Source of the DNA: Clostridia bacterium
GTDB taxonomy: Bacteria > Bacillota > Clostridia > Christensenellales > Aristaeellaceae
DNA length: 36,104 nucleotides
NCBI GenBank assembly: GCA_017459565.1
Contig: JAFUCP010000191.1
Location: 1-36,104, forward strand
Direction: 5' to 3'
In this document: one piece after another, positions 24,021 to 35,940 of the stretch
Numbering within the stretch: position 1 is the stretch's first letter
Layout: each line of letters starts with the position of its first letter
Notes under the pieces: model-generated
Seen by the model: only the letters and a program-made list of their open reading frames with translations
Databases searched by the model: none
Told to the model about the DNA's origin: nothing
Translations under genes and position numbers: made by a program

Positions 24021-26195
24021 TTATGCCTTGCCGGGGCCGATATACTTCAGGCAGAGCATGGTGATGTCGTCGAACTGCTCGGCATCGGCGACAAAGGCGT
24101 TGATGCCGTCCATCACGTTCTTCAACACGGCCTCGGGCGCCGCGTCGGGGTCCCGGTTCAGGGCGGAGAGCATACGGTCCGTGCCGAAAAGCTCGTTTTG
24201 GGCGTTGGTGGCCTCGGCCACGCCGTCGGTATACACGAACAGGCTGTCGCCGGGGCGCAGTTCAAAGCTGTGTTCCTTGTAGGGGATGCCCTCCAGGGTG
24301 GCGACGGCGGGGGAATGTCGATAGGTGACCAGCTCATATTGCCCGTCGGCGCGGCGCAGTGTGGGATGCTCGTGGCCCGCGTTGGCCGCGATGCCCTTGC
24401 CCGTGGAGATCTCCAGCACGGCCAGCCAGACGGTGACGAACAGCTCCGCGTCGTTGCCCTCGCACAGCTGGTCATTCACGTTCTCCAGCGCCTCGCCGGG
24501 GGTCTCGCCGTTTTGCAGGTGGGACTTGATCAGCACCCGGGAGATCATCATGAACAGCGCCGCGGGCACGCCCTTGCCGGAAACGTCGGCCATGACCAGG
24601 CCGATGTGGTCGTCGTCCACCAGGAAGAAATCGTAGAAGTCGCCGCCGACCTCCTTGGCCGGGGTCATGCTGGCATAGATATCAAATTCGGGGCGGTTGG
24701 GGAAGGCGGGGAACAGCCGGGGCAGCTGGCTGGCCTGTATGTCTGTGGCCATGTTCAGCTCCGCGCCGATGCGCTCCTTTTCCGCGGTGACGCGCTGCAC
24801 CTGGTCCACGTATTGCAGCGTCCGTGCGGACAGCGTGGCGAAGGAATCCGCCAGCACCTCGATCTCGTCGCCGGTGCGGTAGGCGTCCTCCATGAAGAAT
24901 TGCAGGTTCTTGCCGCCCAGGGATTGCACCCGCTCGGTCATGATGCCCAGGGGCTTGACGATGCGCTTGGACAGCACCAGCGCCCCGGTAATGCCCATCA
25001 CCAGAATCACGCCCAGCAGCACAAAGATGGTGTTTTTGGCATGACCGATGCCGTCGTTCAGGGCGGATTCGGCATCCAGGAGGATGCTGTCATACTGCTT
25101 TTCCAGCATGTCGGTGGGCTGCTGGGCCAATTCGCTGTTCACGGCGGAGAGGACCGTCCAGCCCACGCTTTCGATGGGCGCGCCGGCCATGTAGTAATTC
25201 TGACCGTCGAATGAAACCTCGGTCACGTCCATGACGCCCTTCAGGGCGCCGGACACAAACGCCGCGAGCGCCTCCTCGCCGGATTCGCGCAGATCCTCCG
25301 CCTCCGAGGGCTGGCGCACGCGCAGCGCGCCCTGGGTCATAGGGGAGAATACCACGTGGCCGTACTGGTTGACGATGACGGTGACCGCGCTGTTTTCGCC
25401 GGTGGCGGAGACGGCGTCGGCCATGTTGTTCAAAAACAGGTCCGCGCCCACCACGCAGGCCAGCTTGTTGCCCTGATAGACGGGCAGCGCGCACATGATG
25501 CCGATTTGCCCGGTGAACACGTCCTGCACCACGTCGGTATAGTACAGCTGGCCGGTCTTGCTTGCGCCGATGTACCAGTCGCGCTCATGGATGGGAATGG
25601 GCATCAGCGTGCCGTCCTCGGAATACTTTTCCGCGGAGTGGTCGTCCGCCAGCAGCATCGCCCCCTCCGGCAGCGCGACATAGCAGGAGTTGACGTTGCC
25701 GTTGGCGTACAGCGCCTTCATCATATCGGACATGTTGGCCACGAGGCCCAGGCGCTCCGCCAGCGCGGCGTTTGTAAGGTCCAGCCCCTCCTCCGTCAGC
25801 AGCTGCACGGTGATTTCGCCGTCCTTCGCCGCGTCGGGCAGTGCGTAGGGCTGGGGCAGATAGGCGTCGGGGCTGTGGAAAATGTTGCCCGCGTAGTCGC
25901 CCAGCATGTTGACCGTGTCCGCCAGATCCTCAAACAGATCGTTGGCGATATAGGCCTCCATCAGGGTACTTTGGCCCATGCTCTGGCTGATCACGGCGTC
26001 CATGGTCTGGTGCGAGATTTCCGAAATGGACTGCTTCTGCCTTTCGTTGGTGTCTGCGACCAGGCTGCCGATCCTGCCGGCCTGGTGGATGATGACCACC
26101 GTATAGGCCGCCATCATCAGCAGGATCACGAACAGCACCAGGTTGAAAACCTTCTGCTGGATGCCGCCGAGAACGATGTTTTTGATCTTTTTCAT
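24021..26195 (-). CDS. Cache-HAMP-PP2C membrane phosphatase (RsbU/SpoIIE-like)
   Basis: A 724-residue protein. It has a membrane helix at about 16-36, a large extracellular sensor of the dCache type (40-385, with ERDWYIGASKTGQLYYTD near 204-220), a second membrane helix at 388-410, a HAMP linker (411-470), and a PP2C-like SpoIIE domain (500-720). The metal-binding aspartates are in GGDFYDFF (517-524), VMADVSGKG (534-542), YTDGVAEA (655-662) and FDDIT (708-712). Such phosphatases dephosphorylate an anti-anti-sigma (STAS) protein in partner-switching stress pathways. No kinase or STAS gene lies in the window. ATG 26195 has GGAGGT at a 6-nt gap. A strong promoter lies upstream, so it is regulated at least partly separately from the TIR gene. 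Confidence 0.93.
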   Translation of the reverse strand: MKKIKNIVLGGIQQKVFNLVLFVILLMMAAYTVVIIHQAGRIGSLVADTNERQKQSISEISHQTMDAVISQSMGQSTLMEAYIANDLFEDLADTVNMLGDYAGNIFHSPDAYLPQPYALPDAAKDGEITVQLLTEEGLDLTNAALAERLGLVANMSDMMKALYANGNVNSCYVALPEGAMLLADDHSAEKYSEDGTLMPIPIHERDWYIGASKTGQLYYTDVVQDVFTGQIGIMCALPVYQGNKLACVVGADLFLNNMADAVSATGENSAVTVIVNQYGHVVFSPMTQGALRVRQPSEAEDLRESGEEALAAFVSGALKGVMDVTEVSFDGQNYYMAGAPIESVGWTVLSAVNSELAQQPTDMLEKQYDSILLDAESALNDGIGHAKNTIFVLLGVILVMGITGALVLSKRIVKPLGIMTERVQSLGGKNLQFFMEDAYRTGDEIEVLADSFATLSARTLQYVDQVQRVTAEKERIGAELNMATDIQASQLPRLFPAFPNRPEFDIYASMTPAKEVGGDFYDFFLVDDDHIGLVMADVSGKGVPAALFMMISRVLIKSHLQNGETPGEALENVNDQLCEGNDAELFVTVWLAVLEISTGKGIAANAGHEHPTLRRADGQYELVTYRHSPAVATLEGIPYKEHSFELRPGDSLFVYTDGVAEATNAQNELFGTDRMLSALNRDPDAAPEAVLKNVMDGINAFVADAEQFDDITMLCLKYIGPGKA

Positions 26196-26238
26196 GAATG
26201 ACCTCCGATTTGCTGTGCCGATTGCGCAAACAAACAGT

Positions 26239-26277
26239 TCCTTTCCTTATCATATTGGAAAGGAGCTGTGTTTTCAA
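26239..26277 (-). promoter_or_regulatory. Promoter TTGAAA-17-TATGAT with inverted repeat across the -10
   Basis: Minus strand: TTGAAA at 26277-26272 and TATGAT at 26254-26249, 17-bp spacer. A perfect inverted repeat TCCTTTCC (26239-26246) / GGAAAGGA (26257-26264), 10-bp gap, brackets the -10 hexamer, as expected of a repressor operator. Confidence 0.65.
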
Positions 26278-26286
26278 GTCTCTTTC

Positions 26287-26328
26287 GAAAAAAGATTTAC
26301 GGGCACTTTTGAAAAAAGATTTACGGGC
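26287..26328. repeat. 24-bp tandem duplication at the end of the TIR gene
   Basis: GAAAAAAGATTTACGGGC occurs at 26287-26304 and again at 26311-26328, a period of 24 bp. The second copy contains the stop codon (26321-26323, minus strand) of the TIR protein, so one copy lies in the gene end and the other just behind it. It looks like a recent slippage duplication. Confidence 0.9.
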
Positions 26329-29300
26329 CGTCCATGAATGGGTCGGCGTCGGCATTTACCAGCTGCCTGCCCGACTGGATCAGCGCATCCAGGTCCGGGA
26401 TGTGGCGGATCTGCAAGCCGTCGCCGTAGCTGAAGGTGTACAGCTCGTCCCTTTCGGAGTCAAAGCCGCAGATGTCCTCCAGCTGGGCCAGCAGCTCCCA
26501 CTGGCGCATGTTTACCACCAGGCACTTTCTCGAACTGCGGTCGATGAAATAGGCGCGTTGGGCGGCGCTGTCCTGGTAAATGACGGTATCGGCGGTGTAG
26601 TCCATCTCCAGGAGCCCGTGGAACACGGCCTCGCCCGTCTCGAGGTCGAACAGCGCCAGCTGCCCGTCCTCCATGTGCAGCATCAGGTAACGGTCGCCAA
26701 AGGCGAACTGGAGCTGCTCGACGTATTCGATGGGCATATCGATGGGCAGCAGCGCTGTGAGCGCGCCCTGGGCCAGGTCGTAAACGCGCAGGCTCCTGTC
26801 CGCGTCCAGAACGGCGATCAGCGGCCTTTCCCGCCCGACAGCCATCATGCGCGCGGCGCTGCCGTGGGCCTCGTCCGCGACGGCGAGCCATTCGCCCGTG
26901 CGGGTATCGTAGGCGATAAAGTTCTCCATGCCCTGATCCGCGGTGTTTTTGCCGTAATCGCTCAGCACGATCAGGCCGTTGCCGCCTGCCAGCACCTGGT
27001 TTACGATCCCCGCGGAGGTCAAAACGTACCAGTTCGCCGCCTCGGGCAGGGAAACGGAGGACTGTTCTTCGCCGTCGAGCCACCAGCGCAGCGCCTTGCC
27101 GTCGCACCAGGCCGTCAGAAGACGTCCGTCGCCCGTCAGGTAATCCGCGTGGCTGCTTGAGACGGAGAGGATGAGGATGTGGTCCTCGGTGGGCTCAAGC
27201 GTCATTTCCTGCCTTTCGGCCAGCACGGTGTCCGCGCCGCTTTCAAAGTCGATCAGATGCATCGCGCCGTCGTATTCCATCCAGATCAGCCCGGAGCCGT
27301 CGGAAAGGAGCAGGCTTTTGGCCAGCTCGCTGTAGAGATAGTCCGTCTGCGACACGATTTCGTGGGTCTGCGTGTCCAGCCGCGCGCAGTGGCGCACGGT
27401 GCCGTTTTCGCCGTAATGCCGGGCATTGAGCAGCGCGCCGCCCTTCACAAACAGCACCGCCGGCAAATCGTTGCTCTCCAGATAGGCGTCCTCCTGGGGG
27501 AAGGGCAGCGTCAGCTGACCTTCGATGCTGTCCGCGCCCAGCGCGCGCTTGACGCGCAGGCTGTGGTCGTCGTCCTGGGGAACCAGCACAATATAGCCGA
27601 AGCCCTGCCGGTAATCCCCGGCTTCGAAGCGGGTCAGCTTGCCTTCCTCTATTACGGGGCGGATGAAGCCCAGTCCAAAGGAGGAGGCCAGGTTCAGTTC
27701 GCCAAGACGGAAGGAATAGTTGAACAAGGACCGGGAATCGAAAAAGCCGTTGTCGTTCAGCCAGCCCACGGCATAATAGCCGTCGTTCAGCACGAAGCCG
27801 AACAGCAGCTCCCCGTCGATGGAAAACATGTGGGCCATCGAGGCCTGGAGCTTTACGGAGGCGACGGTTTCGCCCGTTTCCATGTCCAGGGCGTAGAGCC
27901 GGTCCTTTGCGCTGAACAGCAGCTTGCTGGGCGCCATCAGCAGGCAACATTCGATCTGGCTGTCGTTGAAGCAATAGCTGCCCTCGTCGGGCGTCTGCGC
28001 GCGCCACAGCTCCTTGCCGCTTTCAAGGTCAAATTTGACGCAGGTGGCCGCGACATTGCTGCCCTTGCAGCGCTGGAACAGATACAGGCTTTTTTCGGAG
28101 GGGTCCGCGCACATGCCGATCACCGGCTCCTGATAGCTGTCCATCGGCCAGGACGCCAGCGTCCGGCAGGTCTGCGCCTCCAGGTCCGCCTCGTAGACAA
28201 CAAGGGTGCCGCCGTCATCATAGGTTGAGATAAAGCGCTTCCCGCCGTTTGTGAACAGGCCGGCCTGAAGCTCGCCGTGGGCCGTCTTGTAGACGGGCGT
28301 CCTGAAGCCGACGGTACGGTCTTCATCCACGGTGGCCAGCGGCACGGTGCATATCTTTTTTCCGCTCTGCGCGTCCAGTGCGTCGATGCGGTACTCCTTG
28401 CAGTACCCCCAGGAGTCCTCATCGACCACGAGTTCATCACAGACCAGCGCCAGATGCTGTCCGTCCAGGGACGATACAAAGACATCCAGGGTCGACTCCA
28501 CGGGCGAATACTGCCACTGCTCCTCGCCCGTGACCTGGTCCAGCCGGGCGACGGCGGAGCCGCAGACCTGGATGAGGCCGCCCTGGGCAGTCAGCAGGCG
28601 GGTGTTGCTCTTCGCGTAGACGCTGTCGAGGGACGCGCCCTTGGACGTGCGCCACAGCTGTGCGCCGGATAAGGGATCAAAGGCCGTGACGCCGCCATAT
28701 TCGTCCGCGACATACAGCGCCTCGCCCGCTTCATCCACGGCAAAGTCGCCCACGGGGGAGGCGATGGAAACCTCCGTCTCCGCCACCAGGGTGACGGGCA
28801 GGGAGCTGAACTCAAACACATGCAGCGCCGACAGCAGCGCGCGCTCCGCGGGGGCGTAGAAGGGGCGGTCATCCTCGGGGCCGTCCGGCAGCGCGCTCAG
28901 GGCGCTGCGAATCGCCCCGGCGTCGTTTCCGGTGGCCAGGGCCTCCTCGGCGTTTTTCGTCAGGAGCGTCGATTCGCTGAGCTGTATGCGCTGCTTTTGC
29001 TCGATGAGCTGTTGGTTCCGAGCGGTGATCTGGCGGTTTTTGACCAGCAGCATACCGATGAACGTCGAAGCCGCCAGAAGCAGCACCGTGGAGGCGACGG
29101 CCAGCTGCCGGAAGCGGTAGCGCCGCTCCCGCTGGTACAGGGAATCGTAGGAGCAGCCGATGAGCGCGGCGAACAGGCGCAGCTTTTCGCTGTCCAGCCT
29201 GCGCAGCACCTGATGGGTGCCGCCGCCGGCGATGTTCGCCGCCAGGGGCTCGGTATCCCCGATCAGGTTGCCGTCCGCGTCGTAGATGTGGACCAGCTGG

Positions 29301-29659
29301 TCCGCGAAGGACTCCTCCGGGCGACCGGCGGCCAGCACCACCAGCACATTGTCGCGGCTGTGATGCTCCAGAAAATAGCTGATTTCCCGCTGCACCCATA
29401 CGGATTTCGGGGTATCCGGCGTGCAGACGACAATCAAAAACCGGGTGTGGTCCAGCGCTTCGCGGATGCTGGCGGACAGGTCGCTGGAGACCGGCAGCTC
29501 GTCCTGGTCCCGAAACACCCGCCCCAGGCGGCGATTCTGCCTTCCGGCGGCCAGCTTTGCCGGAACGCGATAGCGTTCGATCAGCCGGTGCAGCCGCCGG
29601 GCCACGGCGGTGTCCAGCGGCATGTGGCGATAGCTGATAAAGGCGATGTATTCATTCAT
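26321..29659 (-). CDS. TIR-domain / transmembrane / beta-propeller protein
   Basis: A 1112-residue protein. The N-terminal TIR domain (about 1-135) has AFISYRHMPLD, RVFRDQDELP near 47-56, FLIVVCTP, and W88VQRE92I, where the glutamate sits where NADase-type TIR domains have their catalytic Glu. Then come a basic stretch, one membrane helix (about 186-206) and a short helical region (208-245). Residues 270-1112 are a long series of beta-rich repeats of WD40/PQQ type (LYVADEYGGVTAFDPLSGAQLW; LYALDMETGETVAS; LALFDLETGEAVF). The Arg-rich N-terminal flank of the helix suggests the TIR domain is inside the cell and the propeller outside. ATG 29659 has AAGGAG upstream; the 180-residue gene ends 21 bp before. 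TIR proteins can be signalling adaptors or NAD-cleaving effectors; which applies is open. Confidence 0.88.
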   Translation of the reverse strand: MNEYIAFISYRHMPLDTAVARRLHRLIERYRVPAKLAAGRQNRRLGRVFRDQDELPVSSDLSASIREALDHTRFLIVVCTPDTPKSVWVQREISYFLEHHSRDNVLVVLAAGRPEESFADQLVHIYDADGNLIGDTEPLAANIAGGGTHQVLRRLDSEKLRLFAALIGCSYDSLYQRERRYRFRQLAVASTVLLLAASTFIGMLLVKNRQITARNQQLIEQKQRIQLSESTLLTKNAEEALATGNDAGAIRSALSALPDGPEDDRPFYAPAERALLSALHVFEFSSLPVTLVAETEVSIASPVGDFAVDEAGEALYVADEYGGVTAFDPLSGAQLWRTSKGASLDSVYAKSNTRLLTAQGGLIQVCGSAVARLDQVTGEEQWQYSPVESTLDVFVSSLDGQHLALVCDELVVDEDSWGYCKEYRIDALDAQSGKKICTVPLATVDEDRTVGFRTPVYKTAHGELQAGLFTNGGKRFISTYDDGGTLVVYEADLEAQTCRTLASWPMDSYQEPVIGMCADPSEKSLYLFQRCKGSNVAATCVKFDLESGKELWRAQTPDEGSYCFNDSQIECCLLMAPSKLLFSAKDRLYALDMETGETVASVKLQASMAHMFSIDGELLFGFVLNDGYYAVGWLNDNGFFDSRSLFNYSFRLGELNLASSFGLGFIRPVIEEGKLTRFEAGDYRQGFGYIVLVPQDDDHSLRVKRALGADSIEGQLTLPFPQEDAYLESNDLPAVLFVKGGALLNARHYGENGTVRHCARLDTQTHEIVSQTDYLYSELAKSLLLSDGSGLIWMEYDGAMHLIDFESGADTVLAERQEMTLEPTEDHILILSVSSSHADYLTGDGRLLTAWCDGKALRWWLDGEEQSSVSLPEAANWYVLTSAGIVNQVLAGGNGLIVLSDYGKNTADQGMENFIAYDTRTGEWLAVADEAHGSAARMMAVGRERPLIAVLDADRSLRVYDLAQGALTALLPIDMPIEYVEQLQFAFGDRYLMLHMEDGQLALFDLETGEAVFHGLLEMDYTADTVIYQDSAAQRAYFIDRSSRKCLVVNMRQWELLAQLEDICGFDSERDELYTFSYGDGLQIRHIPDLDALIQSGRQLVNADADPFMDGP

Positions 29660-29680
29660 AGGCCCGTCTCCTTGCGCAGC

Positions 29681-30223
29681 TCACGGCTTAATGATGTCAT
29701 AGGTCTTTTGAAATTCGTCCCCGGCCACAAGGCCGAACTGCGCGTCCTCGATGGTTCCCGCCGGGCCGCGCCTGACCTCGTAAAACACGATCACGGCGTT
29801 GCGGTCCGCGGACAGCACCGTGCCCCAGAGCCGGGCGGAATACCGCCGCAGGGGGTCCTGCCGGTCGATGCGCAGCCTGCCGCTGTCCAGCAAAAAGCGA
29901 ACCGCGCCGCTCACGGGCTGGCCCTCGCGCCAGGCCTCCAGGGGCCTGGCGCGCTGCACATAGCCGTCCGCCGTGGCGTCGTGGTTGCTCAAAAAATATT
30001 CCGCGGAGTTGGGATAGGGAAAGCCCTCGCCGTCCAGCTTGACGAAGCAGCCGGCCCGGGCCAGCTCTCCCGCGCCGTTTTGCGCCTCCCGGGAGAACAC
30101 CTCGTAGCGACCGCCGCCGAGATCGCGCAGCGCGCCGGAGGCGATGAGCCGCCTCTCCAGCGCAGTGCCGTCGCCCAGGCGGCAGGCGGTCACGGGAAGA
30201 TTCTGCCTTTTCATGACGATCAT
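29681..30223 (-). CDS. Hypothetical 180-residue protein between the TIR and RyR-like genes
   Basis: I do not recognise a family with certainty. It is a soluble protein with no signal peptide or membrane segment. Notable parts are FVKLDGEGFPYPNSAEYFLSN (near residue 60-80), ADGYVQRARPLEAW, SARLWGTVLSADRNAVIVFYEV, and a C-terminus GLVAGDEFQKTYDIIKP, which loosely resembles the ends of PGDYG-type proteins. Start ATG 30223 lies 13 nt after the stop of the RyR-like gene, with GTGAGG near it; ATG 30214 is an alternative. Its position between two membrane signalling genes, with short gaps, implies that it works with one of them. Confidence 0.75.
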   Translation of the reverse strand: MIVMKRQNLPVTACRLGDGTALERRLIASGALRDLGGGRYEVFSREAQNGAGELARAGCFVKLDGEGFPYPNSAEYFLSNHDATADGYVQRARPLEAWREGQPVSGAVRFLLDSGRLRIDRQDPLRRYSARLWGTVLSADRNAVIVFYEVRRGPAGTIEDAQFGLVAGDEFQKTYDIIKP

Positions 30224-30236
30224 GCCGCGTACATCC

Positions 30237-32378
30237 TCACTTCATGCTGTTCAGCAGCGCTTCCGAAACATCGCGGTCGTAGCACTTGATATCCCGCACG
30301 CGGCCCTCGATGCGCGTGCGGGCCATGGAGATGACATCCAGGGCGTCCAGCCCATCCAGGCTTTCGGGCATCCCCGCCACGCAGTCGCCCAGCCGCTCCG
30401 CCGCGCGGGTGTCCACGTCGGCACATTCCACCAGGCAGGGATGCAGCCTGCCGGACACGTTCTTGTAGGCGTAGCTCCTGGGCGGCGCGCCGTCGCGCAG
30501 GGCGGAAACCACATCGTCGATATCGGCGAAGGGTCGCGTGAAGCCCTGCATCCTCAAAAAGGCGTTCCAGCGCCGATGCTCCAGCCAGGTCAGCCGGCTG
30601 ACGAGCGCCTCGCGGGCGGCTGCGCCGGAAAGGTCCGCCGGGGTTACGCAATAGCGCTTGTAGGACAGGTGGAAGCAGCGGCCCACCTCGGACCAGGTAT
30701 CGTAAATGCTGTCGCTGGACAGGTTGATATCGGCAAAGCCGTGTCCATCCTCCGGGGCGGCCGCGGCTTCATCGGCGGCCAGAAAGGCCTCGTCGAGGAA
30801 GATGTTCTCCCAGCTGTAGCGCTCCCTGTAGCTGCCGAAGGACACGATTTCCGGCGCGCAGTCCCGGCCGCTGCCGCCGGAATTCCGGAAGCGGTCGTTC
30901 AGCAGCTGCTGAAGCTCCGCGCTGCGGATCTCGACGGACAGCAGGGGCGCGGCCTTGTCCGGGCGGCGCCGGGTCGCGGCGCCGTAGATGAGCGCGCCGC
31001 GGATGCCTGCCGCCAGCGCCAGGTTTTCCCGGTCGTCGCCGCCCATGACGATGAAGTAATCGCAGTCGCAGAGACGGTAGGTATCCGGGCAGCCGTACAG
31101 GCAGCCCCGTTCGGCGGTCATCAGTTCGCGCAGGTTCGCGCGCGCGGGGTCCTGGTCGATAAAGGAGAGCGCGCAGTAGGGCTGCGCCCAGACCTGCTTT
31201 CCGCTGTTTTGGGCCGACAGCCTCAGGCACTTTGGGTCCGCGCCGTTTCCGGGCCAGGTGCAGCTTTCAATGATCTCCGGGCTCAGGCGGTTCAGCCAGG
31301 CTTCATACCCGTGGACGTCGCCCTCGCCGTCCGAGGGGCACACCACGCTGATGCCCAGCTCGATTCCCGCCAGCTGTCCGCACCAGAACACGGTCTTGAA
31401 CATCTCCCGGGCGAAGGGGCTGTCCCCGAAGATGGCGACGCGCAGCCGCTTGCCGGGGGCATAGCCGCCCAGGGGACGGTACAGCGGCGCGCGCTTGAGC
31501 TGGGCGCAGGCGGCCTGGGCGTGGGGGCGTATGACGTTGATGGAGACGCTGCCGCCCCGGCTGTCCTTGTCGTAACGGGTCTTGATATCCCGCACGCACT
31601 CGATCATTTCGGGGTCGTTGGAGAAGAAGAACACGTCGGCGCCGCTCTCCTGGTTCCAGAAAAAGCCGTCCTCCCCACGGAGGATGGCGTACAGATCCGT
31701 CAGGTTCTTTTCTTCATCAAAGTCGTCCTGCCCGCGCATGTGCATCAAAAACAGGGAGCATTTCCTGGCGTGGCGATAGCTGCCCTGGCGCACGTCCTGG
31801 GACAGCCGGATGCCGCCCATATCGCTTATGCGCATGAGCAGGTCGTCCGGCGCGTCCTCGCCGTCGGAGAACACGATGACGGCAGGGTCCTTCGCGGTGT
31901 GGCGGGCCGCGATGTTTTCGGCCAGGGTGACGGAGGCCTCGTTGATTTCGGAGAAAACGTAAGCGGGTCTGCGCCGCCGGAACCACAGTCGGATCGACGG
32001 GGAAACGCCCGCCAGCACGTCGTAGACGATGGCCCCGCCCACGATGGGCGCGGTGCTGTACAGCAGGGCCAGATAGATGAGCAGCACCAGCGCAGGAAAC
32101 CCTCCGCCCATGGCCGGGTACAGCTCGTCCAGCAGCCCGTAATCGGCATCCAGGCTGAAGGCCTGCATGATCTCCACCAGCAGCGAGGGGGACAGCCGGT
32201 TCACCCCGCAGAGGGACAGACCGAACCGCGCGAGCAGTATGGCGATGATGACGGCGACGGTGAGCGTCAACAGCCGCTGGGTGAGCTTCTGGGTGTGGCG
32301 GGCGACGATGAAGCGCGCGATGCCTGCCGCAAAGACGGCAAAGGAGGCGAGAAAAAACAGGATACCCGCAAGATTCAT
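30237..32378 (-). CDS. Membrane protein with two RCK/TrkA-N-like Rossmann modules and a RyR-like C-terminus
   Basis: A 713-residue protein. I use ATG 32378, with AAAGGA at a 9-nt gap; the GTG at 32384 is too close to that site. Three membrane helices are predicted (about 3-24, 36-58, 94-124). A first Rossmann-like module follows (PAYVFSEINEASVTLAEN at 138-155, AVIVFSDGEDAP). A second (310-470) has RLRVAIFGDSPFAREMF and CDYFIVMGGDDRENLALAAGIR, the pattern of RCK/TrkA-N domains. The C-terminus has LEHRRWNAFLRMQGF (599-613), GRLHPCLVECADVD (643-656) and CYDRD, as in RyR repeat domains. This layout resembles ligand-gated ion-channel regulators (CASTOR/TrkA types), but no selectivity filter is evident. 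The ligand is unknown. Confidence 0.75.
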   Translation of the reverse strand: MNLAGILFFLASFAVFAAGIARFIVARHTQKLTQRLLTLTVAVIIAILLARFGLSLCGVNRLSPSLLVEIMQAFSLDADYGLLDELYPAMGGGFPALVLLIYLALLYSTAPIVGGAIVYDVLAGVSPSIRLWFRRRRPAYVFSEINEASVTLAENIAARHTAKDPAVIVFSDGEDAPDDLLMRISDMGGIRLSQDVRQGSYRHARKCSLFLMHMRGQDDFDEEKNLTDLYAILRGEDGFFWNQESGADVFFFSNDPEMIECVRDIKTRYDKDSRGGSVSINVIRPHAQAACAQLKRAPLYRPLGGYAPGKRLRVAIFGDSPFAREMFKTVFWCGQLAGIELGISVVCPSDGEGDVHGYEAWLNRLSPEIIESCTWPGNGADPKCLRLSAQNSGKQVWAQPYCALSFIDQDPARANLRELMTAERGCLYGCPDTYRLCDCDYFIVMGGDDRENLALAAGIRGALIYGAATRRRPDKAAPLLSVEIRSAELQQLLNDRFRNSGGSGRDCAPEIVSFGSYRERYSWENIFLDEAFLAADEAAAAPEDGHGFADINLSSDSIYDTWSEVGRCFHLSYKRYCVTPADLSGAAAREALVSRLTWLEHRRWNAFLRMQGFTRPFADIDDVVSALRDGAPPRSYAYKNVSGRLHPCLVECADVDTRAAERLGDCVAGMPESLDGLDALDVISMARTRIEGRVRDIKCYDRDVSEALLNSMK

Positions 32379-32412
32379 AGGCACTAATCCTTTCAGAAGG
32401 GGATCGGGCGAA

Positions 32413-34956
32413 TCATTTCGCCGCGCTCGGGGCGGCGCTCTCCCTGCGCATGGACAGGATGCACTTGACGTCGCTCATGGGATCGTCCACATAGTCCGCG
32501 TCCACCACCAGGTCCAGGATGGAGCCGTCCGCGCCGGTCATCCTGAACTGCCGGGAGGCGCTTTGCTTCAGCTCGACGCACTTCAGTGCGATCTTCCACA
32601 GTACGCTTTCGTTTTTCGGAATCAGGCGCTTGTAGAAGCGGCCCGTGTTCAGCTCCTCCTCCATGGCCTGGCGGCTGAGCCCCGTCGCCTTCTCCAGACC
32701 GTGGGCCACGACCTCGAACATGTAGTTGTCCTGATGGGCGACGAGAAACAGCACGGTTCTGGAAACGAAGCGGGACAGCAGCTGCATCTGCTGCTGGAGG
32801 TGGGCGATGCCGGTGATATCCCGGGCCGCCCCGTAAAAGCGCCGGTTCTCGCCGTCGCTGTTCAGAAAATAGAAGTGGATGAGAAAGCGGGAACGGCTCC
32901 CGTCCGTCCTGTTGAAGCTGAGGACCTCGCTGGCGCCGTTCAGCCGGTCGTCACAGGCCCGCTGGAGGACGCCCGTCAGCAGCGCGCTTTCGTTCTTGGG
33001 TATGAACCGATGGATGTTGTTCAGCCGCTCGGTGAGGTCCGGAAGGTGGATGGCCTGGTAGAATTGCTGGTTAAAGCGCACGATATCCACCTCGTCGCCG
33101 TGCCAGGCGTAAATGGCCGCCGGTCCGATGATCTGGTTGAGCATGGAATCGGAATACACATCGTCGTTCAGGAATTCCCGGATGTGGAATTCCTCGTTGA
33201 ACTTGAAGGTGAAGCCCTGGGAATCGATCTTCGCGGGGTCCGCGATCAGCGCCTCAAAGTCCTCCTTCGGCATGGGCTTGTAGAAGTAATAGCCCTGGAT
33301 GTATCGGCAGCCCAGACTCATGAGATAGGCGCACTGCTCCGTCGTCTCCACACCCTCGACGATGATGGGCATGGACATAGTCTTGGCCATGTTGACCACG
33401 GATTCCAGAATGTGCATCCCTTTTTTCTCCGTGGCCTCGTCCATGCGCAGGAAGTAGGCGTCCAGCTTGATCATGTCCACGTTGAGTTCGCGCAGCATGT
33501 TCAGCGACGAAAAGCCGCTGCCGAAGTCGTCCATCAGTACCATGAAGCCCATCTCGCGGAAACGTTGCACGGTGGCGCGCACCTTTTCGGAATCCTCTCC
33601 GTAGGCGGACTCGGTGATCTCCACCTTGACGGCGGCTTTGGGCAGGCTGTACTTTGAAATCAGATCATCGAAATACCTGGGCACGTCCAGGGTGAAAATA
33701 TCCACGGGGCTGATATTGACGGAAACGGGGATCAGAGGATTGCCCCTGTCCAGCGAGGCACGGCTCCACCGGCAGACGGCCTCCCAGATGTACCGGTCCA
33801 GGTCCGGGATGAAGCCGTAGCGCTCCAGGGTGGGGATGAATTGGAACGGGGGAATCATGCTCCCGTCCGGCTTGATCCACCGCGCCAGCGCCTCCGCGCC
33901 CACGATCTGGCCGTTGACCGCCCGGCACTGGGGCTGCAAAAAGAAGGTGATTTCCCCGTTGGCCAGGGCGTCCTTGAAGGCGGAAAGGGTCTTGTAGTCC
34001 TCTGCCGTCTGCTCAACCAGGGAGGTGGAATAGAAGATCACCCGGTTGCGGTAATCCTTCTTGGCCTCCTGACAGGCCAGGGATGCCTCGTCGTGCAGCG
34101 TGTAAACGGATGCCGAGCCGTTGGAGCGGCAGGCCCCGATGGCGGGCAGAAAGCCGACGGAAACGCCGTGGCCCTTGATGATGTTTTGCAGCTTTTCATA
34201 GAGCTGATCGACGCTGAACTGCTCCGCGGGCACCAGCAGCGCGAAATCATCGCCGCCGATATAGCCGGCTACGCCGTTATACAGGGCGGCGGTTCGCACC
34301 AGCTCCTGGCCCACGTCCGCAAGCACATGGTCGCCCAGCTCACGCCCATACCATTCGTTGAACAGCTTGAAGTGCTGCAAATCGATGGCGATGAGCAGCC
34401 ACTGGGTGTCCGCATTGGAGAGCATGTTTTCCGCCTGGACGTAAAAGTCCTTTTCCCGGGGCAGCCCGGTGAGCTGGTCCAGCGGCATATCCCGGCCATA
34501 GGAAACCCGGGTCTTGCCCTCCTCGCGGTCCTTCCGGCTCTGCACATCGAAGATATAGCAGTAAGCCAGCCCCTCCGGCACGCCCCGGGCCGTGCCGCTG
34601 ACGACGTATTGCTCGCACCAGTGCCAGTCGCCGAGGGCGTTTTTGACGCGGAACTCAAAATCCAGCACGCCGTCGGCGGATTCCATGTGAATGGGCAGCG
34701 CCTTCGGATCCATCATGTCCAGATACAGCTGTCGGTCCTCAGGATGTACCATGCGCGTGCCCACATAGGTGTGAAAGGCGCTGTAGGCGCCCTCCATGGA
34801 TGGGGACAAGTATTTTTGGGCCACGTTGAATATGAATTGATAGGTGTCCTTTGCAAGGTCAATGGAAATCAGATCGTCAAACGCCGAATGATCGAGAAAT
34901 TCCACCAGGGGAAATTCCGGGTGTTCCTTTGAAAACCGCGCGATCGTGCCAGCCAT
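32413..34956 (-). CDS. PAS-GGDEF(degenerate)-EAL-PAS cyclic-di-GMP protein
   Basis: An 847-residue soluble protein. An N-terminal PAS-like region (about 15-145) precedes a GGDEF domain whose signature reads GGDDF (234-238) with no RxxD site before it, so cyclase activity is doubtful. The EAL domain is intact: E355-A-L, N414 in NISP, E447 in EITES, D476-D477 in MDDFGSG, K497 in KLD, E534 in VEGVET and Q554 in QGYYF. It should therefore break down c-di-GMP. Two further PAS-like parts fill 600-830 (e.g. FYGAARDITG). ATG 34956 has AAGGAAG upstream and a strong promoter at 35006-35034. It heads the minus-strand run that continues into the RyR-like, unknown and TIR genes. Confidence 0.93.
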   Translation of the reverse strand: MAGTIARFSKEHPEFPLVEFLDHSAFDDLISIDLAKDTYQFIFNVAQKYLSPSMEGAYSAFHTYVGTRMVHPEDRQLYLDMMDPKALPIHMESADGVLDFEFRVKNALGDWHWCEQYVVSGTARGVPEGLAYCYIFDVQSRKDREEGKTRVSYGRDMPLDQLTGLPREKDFYVQAENMLSNADTQWLLIAIDLQHFKLFNEWYGRELGDHVLADVGQELVRTAALYNGVAGYIGGDDFALLVPAEQFSVDQLYEKLQNIIKGHGVSVGFLPAIGACRSNGSASVYTLHDEASLACQEAKKDYRNRVIFYSTSLVEQTAEDYKTLSAFKDALANGEITFFLQPQCRAVNGQIVGAEALARWIKPDGSMIPPFQFIPTLERYGFIPDLDRYIWEAVCRWSRASLDRGNPLIPVSVNISPVDIFTLDVPRYFDDLISKYSLPKAAVKVEITESAYGEDSEKVRATVQRFREMGFMVLMDDFGSGFSSLNMLRELNVDMIKLDAYFLRMDEATEKKGMHILESVVNMAKTMSMPIIVEGVETTEQCAYLMSLGCRYIQGYYFYKPMPKEDFEALIADPAKIDSQGFTFKFNEEFHIREFLNDDVYSDSMLNQIIGPAAIYAWHGDEVDIVRFNQQFYQAIHLPDLTERLNNIHRFIPKNESALLTGVLQRACDDRLNGASEVLSFNRTDGSRSRFLIHFYFLNSDGENRRFYGAARDITGIAHLQQQMQLLSRFVSRTVLFLVAHQDNYMFEVVAHGLEKATGLSRQAMEEELNTGRFYKRLIPKNESVLWKIALKCVELKQSASRQFRMTGADGSILDLVVDADYVDDPMSDVKCILSMRRESAAPSAAK

Positions 34957-35005
34957 TTCGGATGCTTCCTTTGCATTAAGAATTGGAAACGTTTGTAATA
35001 TTTAT

Positions 35006-35257: not shown

Positions 35258-35334
35258 TGGTCTGGGTGAGAGGATTCGAACCTCCGGCCTCTTGAACCCC
35301 ATTCAAGCACGCTACCAAACTGCGCTACACCCAG
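35258..35334 (-). tRNA. tRNA-Pro(GGG)
   Basis: 77 nt including an encoded CCA (35258-35260). Acceptor CTGGGTG/CACCCAG pairs fully; D-arm GCGC...GCGT; anticodon stem CTTGA/TCAAG with the 7-nt loop ATGGGGT, anticodon GGG at 35298-35300 (reads CCC and, by wobble, CCU). T-arm GGAGG-TTCGAAT-CCTCT is standard. A consensus promoter lies upstream and a terminator downstream, so it is a single-gene unit. Confidence 0.95.
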
Positions 35335-35588: not shown

Positions 35589-35900
35589 TCAATGGTTTGG
35601 GCCTGCGCTGTTTATCTGCCGCAATTCGTCCGCGATTCGCAGTAGCGCCTGGATCTGCAAATCGGTCAGGCCCTCGGTTGAGATGGACGGCGTGCCTGCC
35701 ACCCCCAGAAGATAGTCGCATGACACGCCGAAGATGCCGGAAATGTGGACCAGTATGTCATAAGGCGGAAGGTGGATGCCGTTTTCATAGGCGCTGATGA
35801 CAGACTTGGATACGCCGAGCATGTTGGCCAGCTCGGTCTGCGTCATATGCCGCTGAATACGCAGCTCCCGTATGTGTTCGCAGACGACAGAATAAATCAT
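35589..35900 (-). CDS. XRE-family transcriptional regulator
   Basis: A 103-residue protein. The N-terminal helix-turn-helix of Cro/CI type (about residues 5-62) contains IRELRIQRHMTQTELANMLGVSKSVISAYENG, here cited in part, followed by PPYDILVHISGIFGVSCDYLLG, typical of small XRE repressors. The C-terminus (residues 75-103) is helical (LTDLQIQALLRIADEL). I start at ATG 35900, with GGAGGT just upstream; an in-frame GTG at 35906 lies inside that site. A perfect palindrome in its promoter suggests it represses itself and the divergent gene. Confidence 0.92.
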   Translation of the reverse strand: MIYSVVCEHIRELRIQRHMTQTELANMLGVSKSVISAYENGIHLPPYDILVHISGIFGVSCDYLLGVAGTPSISTEGLTDLQIQALLRIADELRQINSAGPNH

Positions 35901-35940
35901 ATGCACCTCCAGCTATGGAAATCATATGTCAAGGAGGTAC

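Follow-up and report, generated by a model that had tools for sequence, protein, structure and literature searches.

As judged by comparison with relatives, it is only the genes for an RCK/RyR-like membrane protein, a 180-aa protein (p180) and a TIR-propeller protein that recur as a group, and not all five genes of the run in which they were noticed. We consider the best reading of this trio to be a three-gene NAD-derived signalling system with the RyR/RCK membrane protein as receiver, and give this about an even chance of being right. The analysed stretch of DNA, 36,104 nt in length, probably from an uncultured gut bacterium and hereafter called the window, is one entire contig of a 249-contig assembly, and the genomes behind all counts below are mostly MAGs.

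The sequence-only reading described five consecutive minus-strand genes, and the ORF list has all of them at the positions given: a PAS-GGDEF-EAL gene (34956-32413, 847 aa), the RCK/RyR-like membrane protein gene (30237..32384, 715 aa), the p180 gene (29681..30223), the TIR-TM-beta-propeller gene (26321..29659, 1112 aa) and a PP2C gene (26195-24021, 724 aa). The close spacing it reported (34, 13 and 21 nt) is borne out. The EAL gene and the RCK/RyR gene are 28 nt apart, or 34 nt if translation of the latter begins two codons further, at an ATG, followed by gaps of 13 nt to p180 and 21 nt to the TIR gene, and the PP2C gene comes after another 125 nt. Pfam agrees with the labels given to the first gene (EAL 5.6e-62, GGDEF 6.3e-16, PAS_3 7.3e-8), the PP2C gene (dCache_1 1.6e-12, SpoIIE/PP2C 1.9e-47) and the TIR-propeller gene (TIR_2, ThsB_TIR and PQQ_2), while the RCK and RyR labels have no direct match in Pfam, NCBIfam or PADLOC, RyR being recognised via relatives. 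The 180-aa protein was rightly called unrecognised, as it has no match in these three collections at the thresholds used. A single strong promoter was also proposed. A promoter-like pattern does stand ahead of the EAL gene (11/12, 35034-35006), but another precedes the PP2C gene (10/12, 26277-26249), hence the latter gene is probably separate. Further upstream of the EAL gene lie a tRNA-Pro (window 35258-35334) and an XRE-type regulator (window 35589-35906).

To see which genes belong together we searched 41 genomes, 25 of them of the genus including the window's own. Besides the window, an RCK-RyR orthologue with 74-76% identity was found in G002, G015 and G019, and G007 and G009 gave distant matches only. 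The p180 gene is present in the same four genomes (4/41, or 4/28 genus genomes), and the order RCK-RyR, p180 and then TIR-propeller gene is conserved in these relatives. The TIR copy contains a stop in G019 and is split over two frames in G015, which points to decay or assembly error. Orthologues of the EAL gene (at least 80%; G791, G789, G008 and G007) and of the PP2C gene (at least 78%; G002, G789, G019, G791, G010 and G007) do not share a contig with one another, nor with the trio in G002 and G019; it should be noted that the contig end is near in some cases (G789:C95) and that in G015 the contig is not long enough to show neighbours. When the window was compared by BLASTN with nine loci (L014, L015 and L210-L216), three blocks emerged whose limits fall close to gene boundaries, EAL at 32434-34979, the trio at 26359-32368 and PP2C at 24034-26211, and these were never joined. 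As the blocks are separate in relatives, the run of EAL gene, trio and PP2C gene seems particular to this genome or its assembly. Membership of the EAL and PP2C genes in the module first proposed is hence not supported; of the four close-spaced genes expected to co-occur, RCK/RyR, p180 and TIR do so and EAL does not.

The TIR domain (29324..29653, minus strand; Pfam and alignment) scores above the curated cut-offs of both TIR_2 (PF13676; 2e-8, 35.2 bits vs 28) and ThsB_TIR (2e-7, 31.8 bits vs 21.2), while the PADLOC ThsB model reaches only E 0.024. It has a catalytic-type glutamate, Glu92 (WVQRE), in a column that is Glu in 44/44 aligned TIR rows, four rows being loci fetched twice. By its score and this active-site residue the window TIR is predicted to be of the catalytic type. 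A TM segment (residues 185-207; 29039..29107, minus strand) is predicted from hydropathy and flanking charge, and the propeller matches PQQ_2 at 2.1e-18 in Pfam. Of 40 rows, the window and 14 others have a single TM segment following the TIR domain. All 15 carry more positive charge on the flank facing the TIR, by a small margin in the window (+3 vs +2). From this charge pattern the TIR is likely to be inside and the sensor outside. The sensor end itself differs between loci: it is a propeller in the window, L085, L094 and L099, TPR in L097, L117 and L118, LRR in L020 and L107, MORN in L069, FtsK-like in L019, NACHT-like in L076 and a nitroreductase in L071. We infer that such a fixed core with swappable sensors has the look of defence or alarm systems. 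The nitroreductase-TIR fusion (L071:12464-13588) overlaps the RCK-RyR gene.

At the thresholds applied, the 715-aa protein matched no entry of Pfam (including PF02026, TrkA_N and Ion_trans_2), NCBIfam or PADLOC. Hydropathy predicts three TM segments in its N-terminal membrane region (residues 1-29, 33-64 and 88-121; 32022..32384, minus strand), and the family alignment places two Rossmann-type modules thereafter; TrkA_N is found below threshold in the relatives L019 (E 0.07) and L020 (E 0.024). RCK (TrkA-N) gated K+ channels likewise have a TM region and then two Rossmann modules, but the window protein has no TVGYGD K+ filter.

The C-terminal domain of this protein (30240..30602, minus strand; H603, W606, H648 and D703) appears RyR (R12)-like from alignment, conservation and a weak profile match. 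Pfam RyR (PF02026) passes the gathering score in the relative L020 (2.1e-7) and gives E 0.019 in L019, and full-length alignment with L019, L020 and L021, where the RyR is on a neighbouring channel protein, puts the domain at the C-terminus of the window protein. A profile made from the RyR domains of Pfam-positive proteins hits the window at i-E 0.0017 and 55/81 relatives below 1e-3, vs 0/405 shuffled sequences; hhalign of the window-family and RyR alignments gave 14%. The window domain thus looks diverged, with weak direct homology to RyR. Over the 81 relatives H603 is conserved in 81, W606 in 81, H648 in 79 and D703 in 79, the first two partly by construction as both belong to one search pattern. 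The profile-found set keeps H603 and W606 in 50/50 each and H648 in 46/50, while its D703 column has D in 11 of 50 rows, a gap in 24 and another residue in 15, the rows being cut short after the match. According to PMC13232231, RyDEP contacts 2'/3'cADPR through H75, W78, H100 and D117. By motif and spacing, H603, W606, H648 and D703 would correspond to these four residues; the His-Trp spacing is that of RyDEP, and the His-Asp spacing is that of RyDEP in L020 and longer in the window.

RyR domains were also found near RCK-RyR loci in other forms. Standalone RyR proteins of about 93 aa lie near RCK-RyR in 19 of the best 80 loci described below, and a profile of 16 such proteins strongly matches RyR repeats and bacterial 3nrt. 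A TVGYGD K+ pore is joined to a RyR domain in four proteins, from the loci L021:113-3444, L097:5419-10988, L105:1-3932 and L107:2680-8384, with PF02026 scoring above the cut-off in L107 and L021, right on it in L097 and just below it in L105. Three of the four (L097, L105 and L107) are beside both TIR and RCK-RyR, the TIR of L105 being on the opposite strand and cut by the contig end; the channel-RyR protein of L021 is beside a diverged RCK-RyR only.

The linkage of TIR to RCK-RyR was investigated with a six-row RCK-RyR profile against 395 genomes of the order (E up to 1e-3), at most two candidates per genome being scored among the matches listed. Matches were found in 82/395 genomes, many weak ones probably being unrelated. 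For the linkage count we used a strong set of 35 loci in 33 genomes, made up of 32 loci with E < 1e-17 and the three same-genus loci, excluding every weaker match and the G009 contig, which is truncated; PF13676 was sought in 40 genomes, and the expected value was derived from the TIR number and rounded size of each genome. A TIR is found no more than 6 kb from RCK-RyR in 16/35 strong loci vs 0.72 expected, about 20 times chance, where the linked loci are not independent by descent and the computed tail probability is hence a guide only. Without the three same-genus copies the count is 13/32. The strand is the same as that of RCK-RyR in 11 linked loci and opposite in 5. One of the 16 (G130) is under the Pfam cut-off, and a TIR-NACHT beside the G172 locus (TIR_2 E 2.1e-4) is uncounted. 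Also outside the count are 12 weaker loci, 7 with a nearby TIR match by a profile of our own, at least one of which (G033) was picked since its TIR had already been seen.

A GTDB contig scan gave 187 RCK-RyR relatives, and the best 80 of these were used. Their titles are mostly Clostridia-type, largely MAGs and many of gut or rumen origin; one Cloacimonadota and one Erysipelotrichaceae are among them. The fetched flanks contain a TIR match in 18 of the best 80 loci (three being the same-genus contigs again and one the G035 locus again) and none in the other 62. In the class search an adjoining TIR was found in 2/14 loci fetched, L205, whose RCK-RyR is spread over two frames, and L207, both from other families of the class. 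Scattered homologues, which the sequence-only reading named as evidence against a module, do occur: 19/35 strong RCK-RyR loci are without a Pfam TIR within 6 kb, and G022 has TIR-propeller-type paralogues (L193 and L194) in a genome where our search found neither RCK-RyR nor p180. Against this stands the co-occurrence at about 20 times chance.

The p180 gene adjoins or is fused to RCK-RyR in 10/11 closest loci (three being same-genus contigs), with a C-terminal fusion in L113, and its profile finds none in the other 69 of the best 80, i.e. 10/80 overall. In 390 genomes of the order p180 occurs at five places in four genomes, one being the window and 4/5 of them away from RCK-RyR. It stands without TIR, RyR or RCK match nearby in L189 and L191, and in L192 it follows a protein that matches the Card1 endonuclease below threshold (E 0.009). 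In L190:6911-8605 it forms the N-terminal part of a fusion with a CAP12-type TIR and a prokaryotic STING domain. The gene after this fusion has a sub-threshold DUF4062 match (E 0.029), and DUF4062 proteins are reportedly TIR-like NADases.

A TIR with a probably outward sensor, an ADP-ribose-type pocket and p180 joined to TIR-STING elsewhere together point to NAD-derived nucleotide signalling. In the mechanism we propose, the TIR protein would be a membrane sensor with a cytoplasmic TIR, one TM helix and a beta-propeller probably outside. The propeller would sense a cue, upon which the TIR would turn NAD+ into an ADP-ribose-type signal, and this signal would be bound by the RyR-like C-terminal domain, coupled via the two Rossmann modules to the three-TM part. 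The receptor may then alter membrane permeability or recruit an effector, by which the cell would be slowed or killed, possibly in defence against phage, and p180 would act as a partner of the receptor. This suggests a bacterial alarm with a signal that acts directly on the membrane. The nucleotide-signal circuit first imagined is thereby retained in part, with the RCK/RyR protein as receptor in a recurring trio, and with the EAL and PP2C proteins removed from it. More tentatively, we speculate about a bacterial cADPR-to-ryanodine-receptor logic, in which a TIR signal would gate a membrane protein or K+ channel via RyR in an immune or stress response, the TIR receptor facing outward like a Toll-like receptor; this wider idea we hold to be possible and rather doubtful.

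The RCK/RyR protein might instead be a general stress or ion-homeostasis sensor of NAD(H), ADP-ribose or adenine nucleotides, with the TIR as scaffold or one client and no role in defence. The many RCK-RyR loci without TIR are in accordance with this, along with the housekeeping settings of L197, L198, L200 and L202, where RCK-RyR relatives of 481-499 aa share a common setting, no TIR match is found, and the neighbours resemble what we take to be NAD(P)HX-repair and alanine racemase genes. There is also no clear defence-island signal around the loci: PADLOC on 97 of the 163 listed neighbour proteins gave mad3 in 4 and eleven other models once each, with no background control, and the defence-island setting suggested from sequence is not upheld. 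However, the TIR linkage is far over chance, the TIR Glu is conserved and the sensor ends are swapped, and the associations with Can2/Card1-like and TIR-STING proteins further speak against this sensor, which we find unlikely. A Can2/Card1-like CARF nuclease family is near RCK-RyR in 14 loci, e.g. L112, L120, L131 and L164, the Can2 label being based on a PDB profile match of a representative (5.4e-7). Other neighbours, labelled from representatives, are a double-AAA and M41 peptidase protein of about 1150 aa in 18 RCK-RyR loci and a YbjN-like protein in 8.

A further possibility is that the RyR-like protein serves as a brake, which cleaves or sequesters the TIR product until a trigger arrives, the TIR acting by NAD+ depletion. 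RyDEP cleaves 2'/3'cADPR and 6/8 selected phage homologues bound these signals, while none of the selected homologues besides RyDEP cleaved, as reported in PMC13232231. The counterparts of the catalytic H75 and D117 in the alignment are conserved, but the domain sits on TM and Rossmann modules, and in relatives on a K+ pore, for which gating fits better than hydrolysis, and we regard a brake as quite improbable. We find it very hard to believe in a c-di-GMP and phosphatase circuit that includes EAL and PP2C and so spans all five genes, to which the short EAL-to-trio gap in the window lends itself, as in the compared relatives the EAL and PP2C orthologues are neither together nor with the trio, and the PP2C gene has its own promoter-like site.

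Returning to the three-gene signalling system, we compared it with known systems. The trio has no SIR2, SLOG or macro match in Pfam or NCBIfam and no PADLOC ThsA match; Thoeris was rejected as its identity since the defining effectors are absent, though a ThsB-like TIR match is present. In TM-macro Thoeris a TIR-made NAD-derived nucleotide is bound by a membrane-anchored sensor, membrane perturbation is proposed, and SLOG and macro domains are known readers of TIR-made ADP-ribose signals, according to PMC11204291. The trio is alike in pairing a TIR enzyme with a membrane-anchored reader domain, the latter as proposed here, and unlike in that its reader is RyR-like with Rossmann modules and not macro, that p180 is added, and that its TIR is membrane-bound with a large sensor. 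With phage RyDEP and its homologues (PF02026) it shares a RyR/R12-type domain with His, Trp, His and Asp, but in PMC13232231 RyDEP is a phage counter-defence enzyme and the homologues are sponges, whereas in the trio a host membrane protein carries the domain and its gene is linked to one for a TIR. The same paper has cADPR implicated in ryanodine receptor modulation. Animal ryanodine receptors also have a RyR domain on a membrane protein; unlike these, the trio is without a Ca2+-channel pore and has one diverged RyR-like unit, K+-channel fusions being found in relatives only. Relatives of p180 are fused to or beside TIR-STING and Can2/Card1 proteins, while STING and CARF are absent from the trio.

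If the proposed reading is true, TIR signals would have a new class of reader in a host membrane receptor with a RyR domain, a novelty we state with reserve. It would help explain why phage RyR proteins bind these signals, and would offer a simple bacterial model of the proposed link between cADPR and the ryanodine receptor. The K+-channel-RyR proteins beside TIR genes make the idea directly testable.

An AlphaFold2 model of p180 from nine sequences has a mean pLDDT of 94.8, and its order of strands and helices appears twice. Profiles of the N-half and C-half score 23.4 against each other vs at most 22.9 in 60 column shuffles, a bare margin, and p180 is possibly a tandem duplication of a domain of about 90 residues. 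No PDB relative of the model stood out among 999 chains compared. Proteins starting with MRKLTIKRTK were seen both beside RCK-RyR (L019:10957-11832) and beside p180 (L191:8613-9059), the one in L191 having no Pfam match. The first repeat of the p180 relative at L189:7153-7773 weakly matches phrog_4502 (E 0.0014), hinting at phage relatives of the p180 fold.
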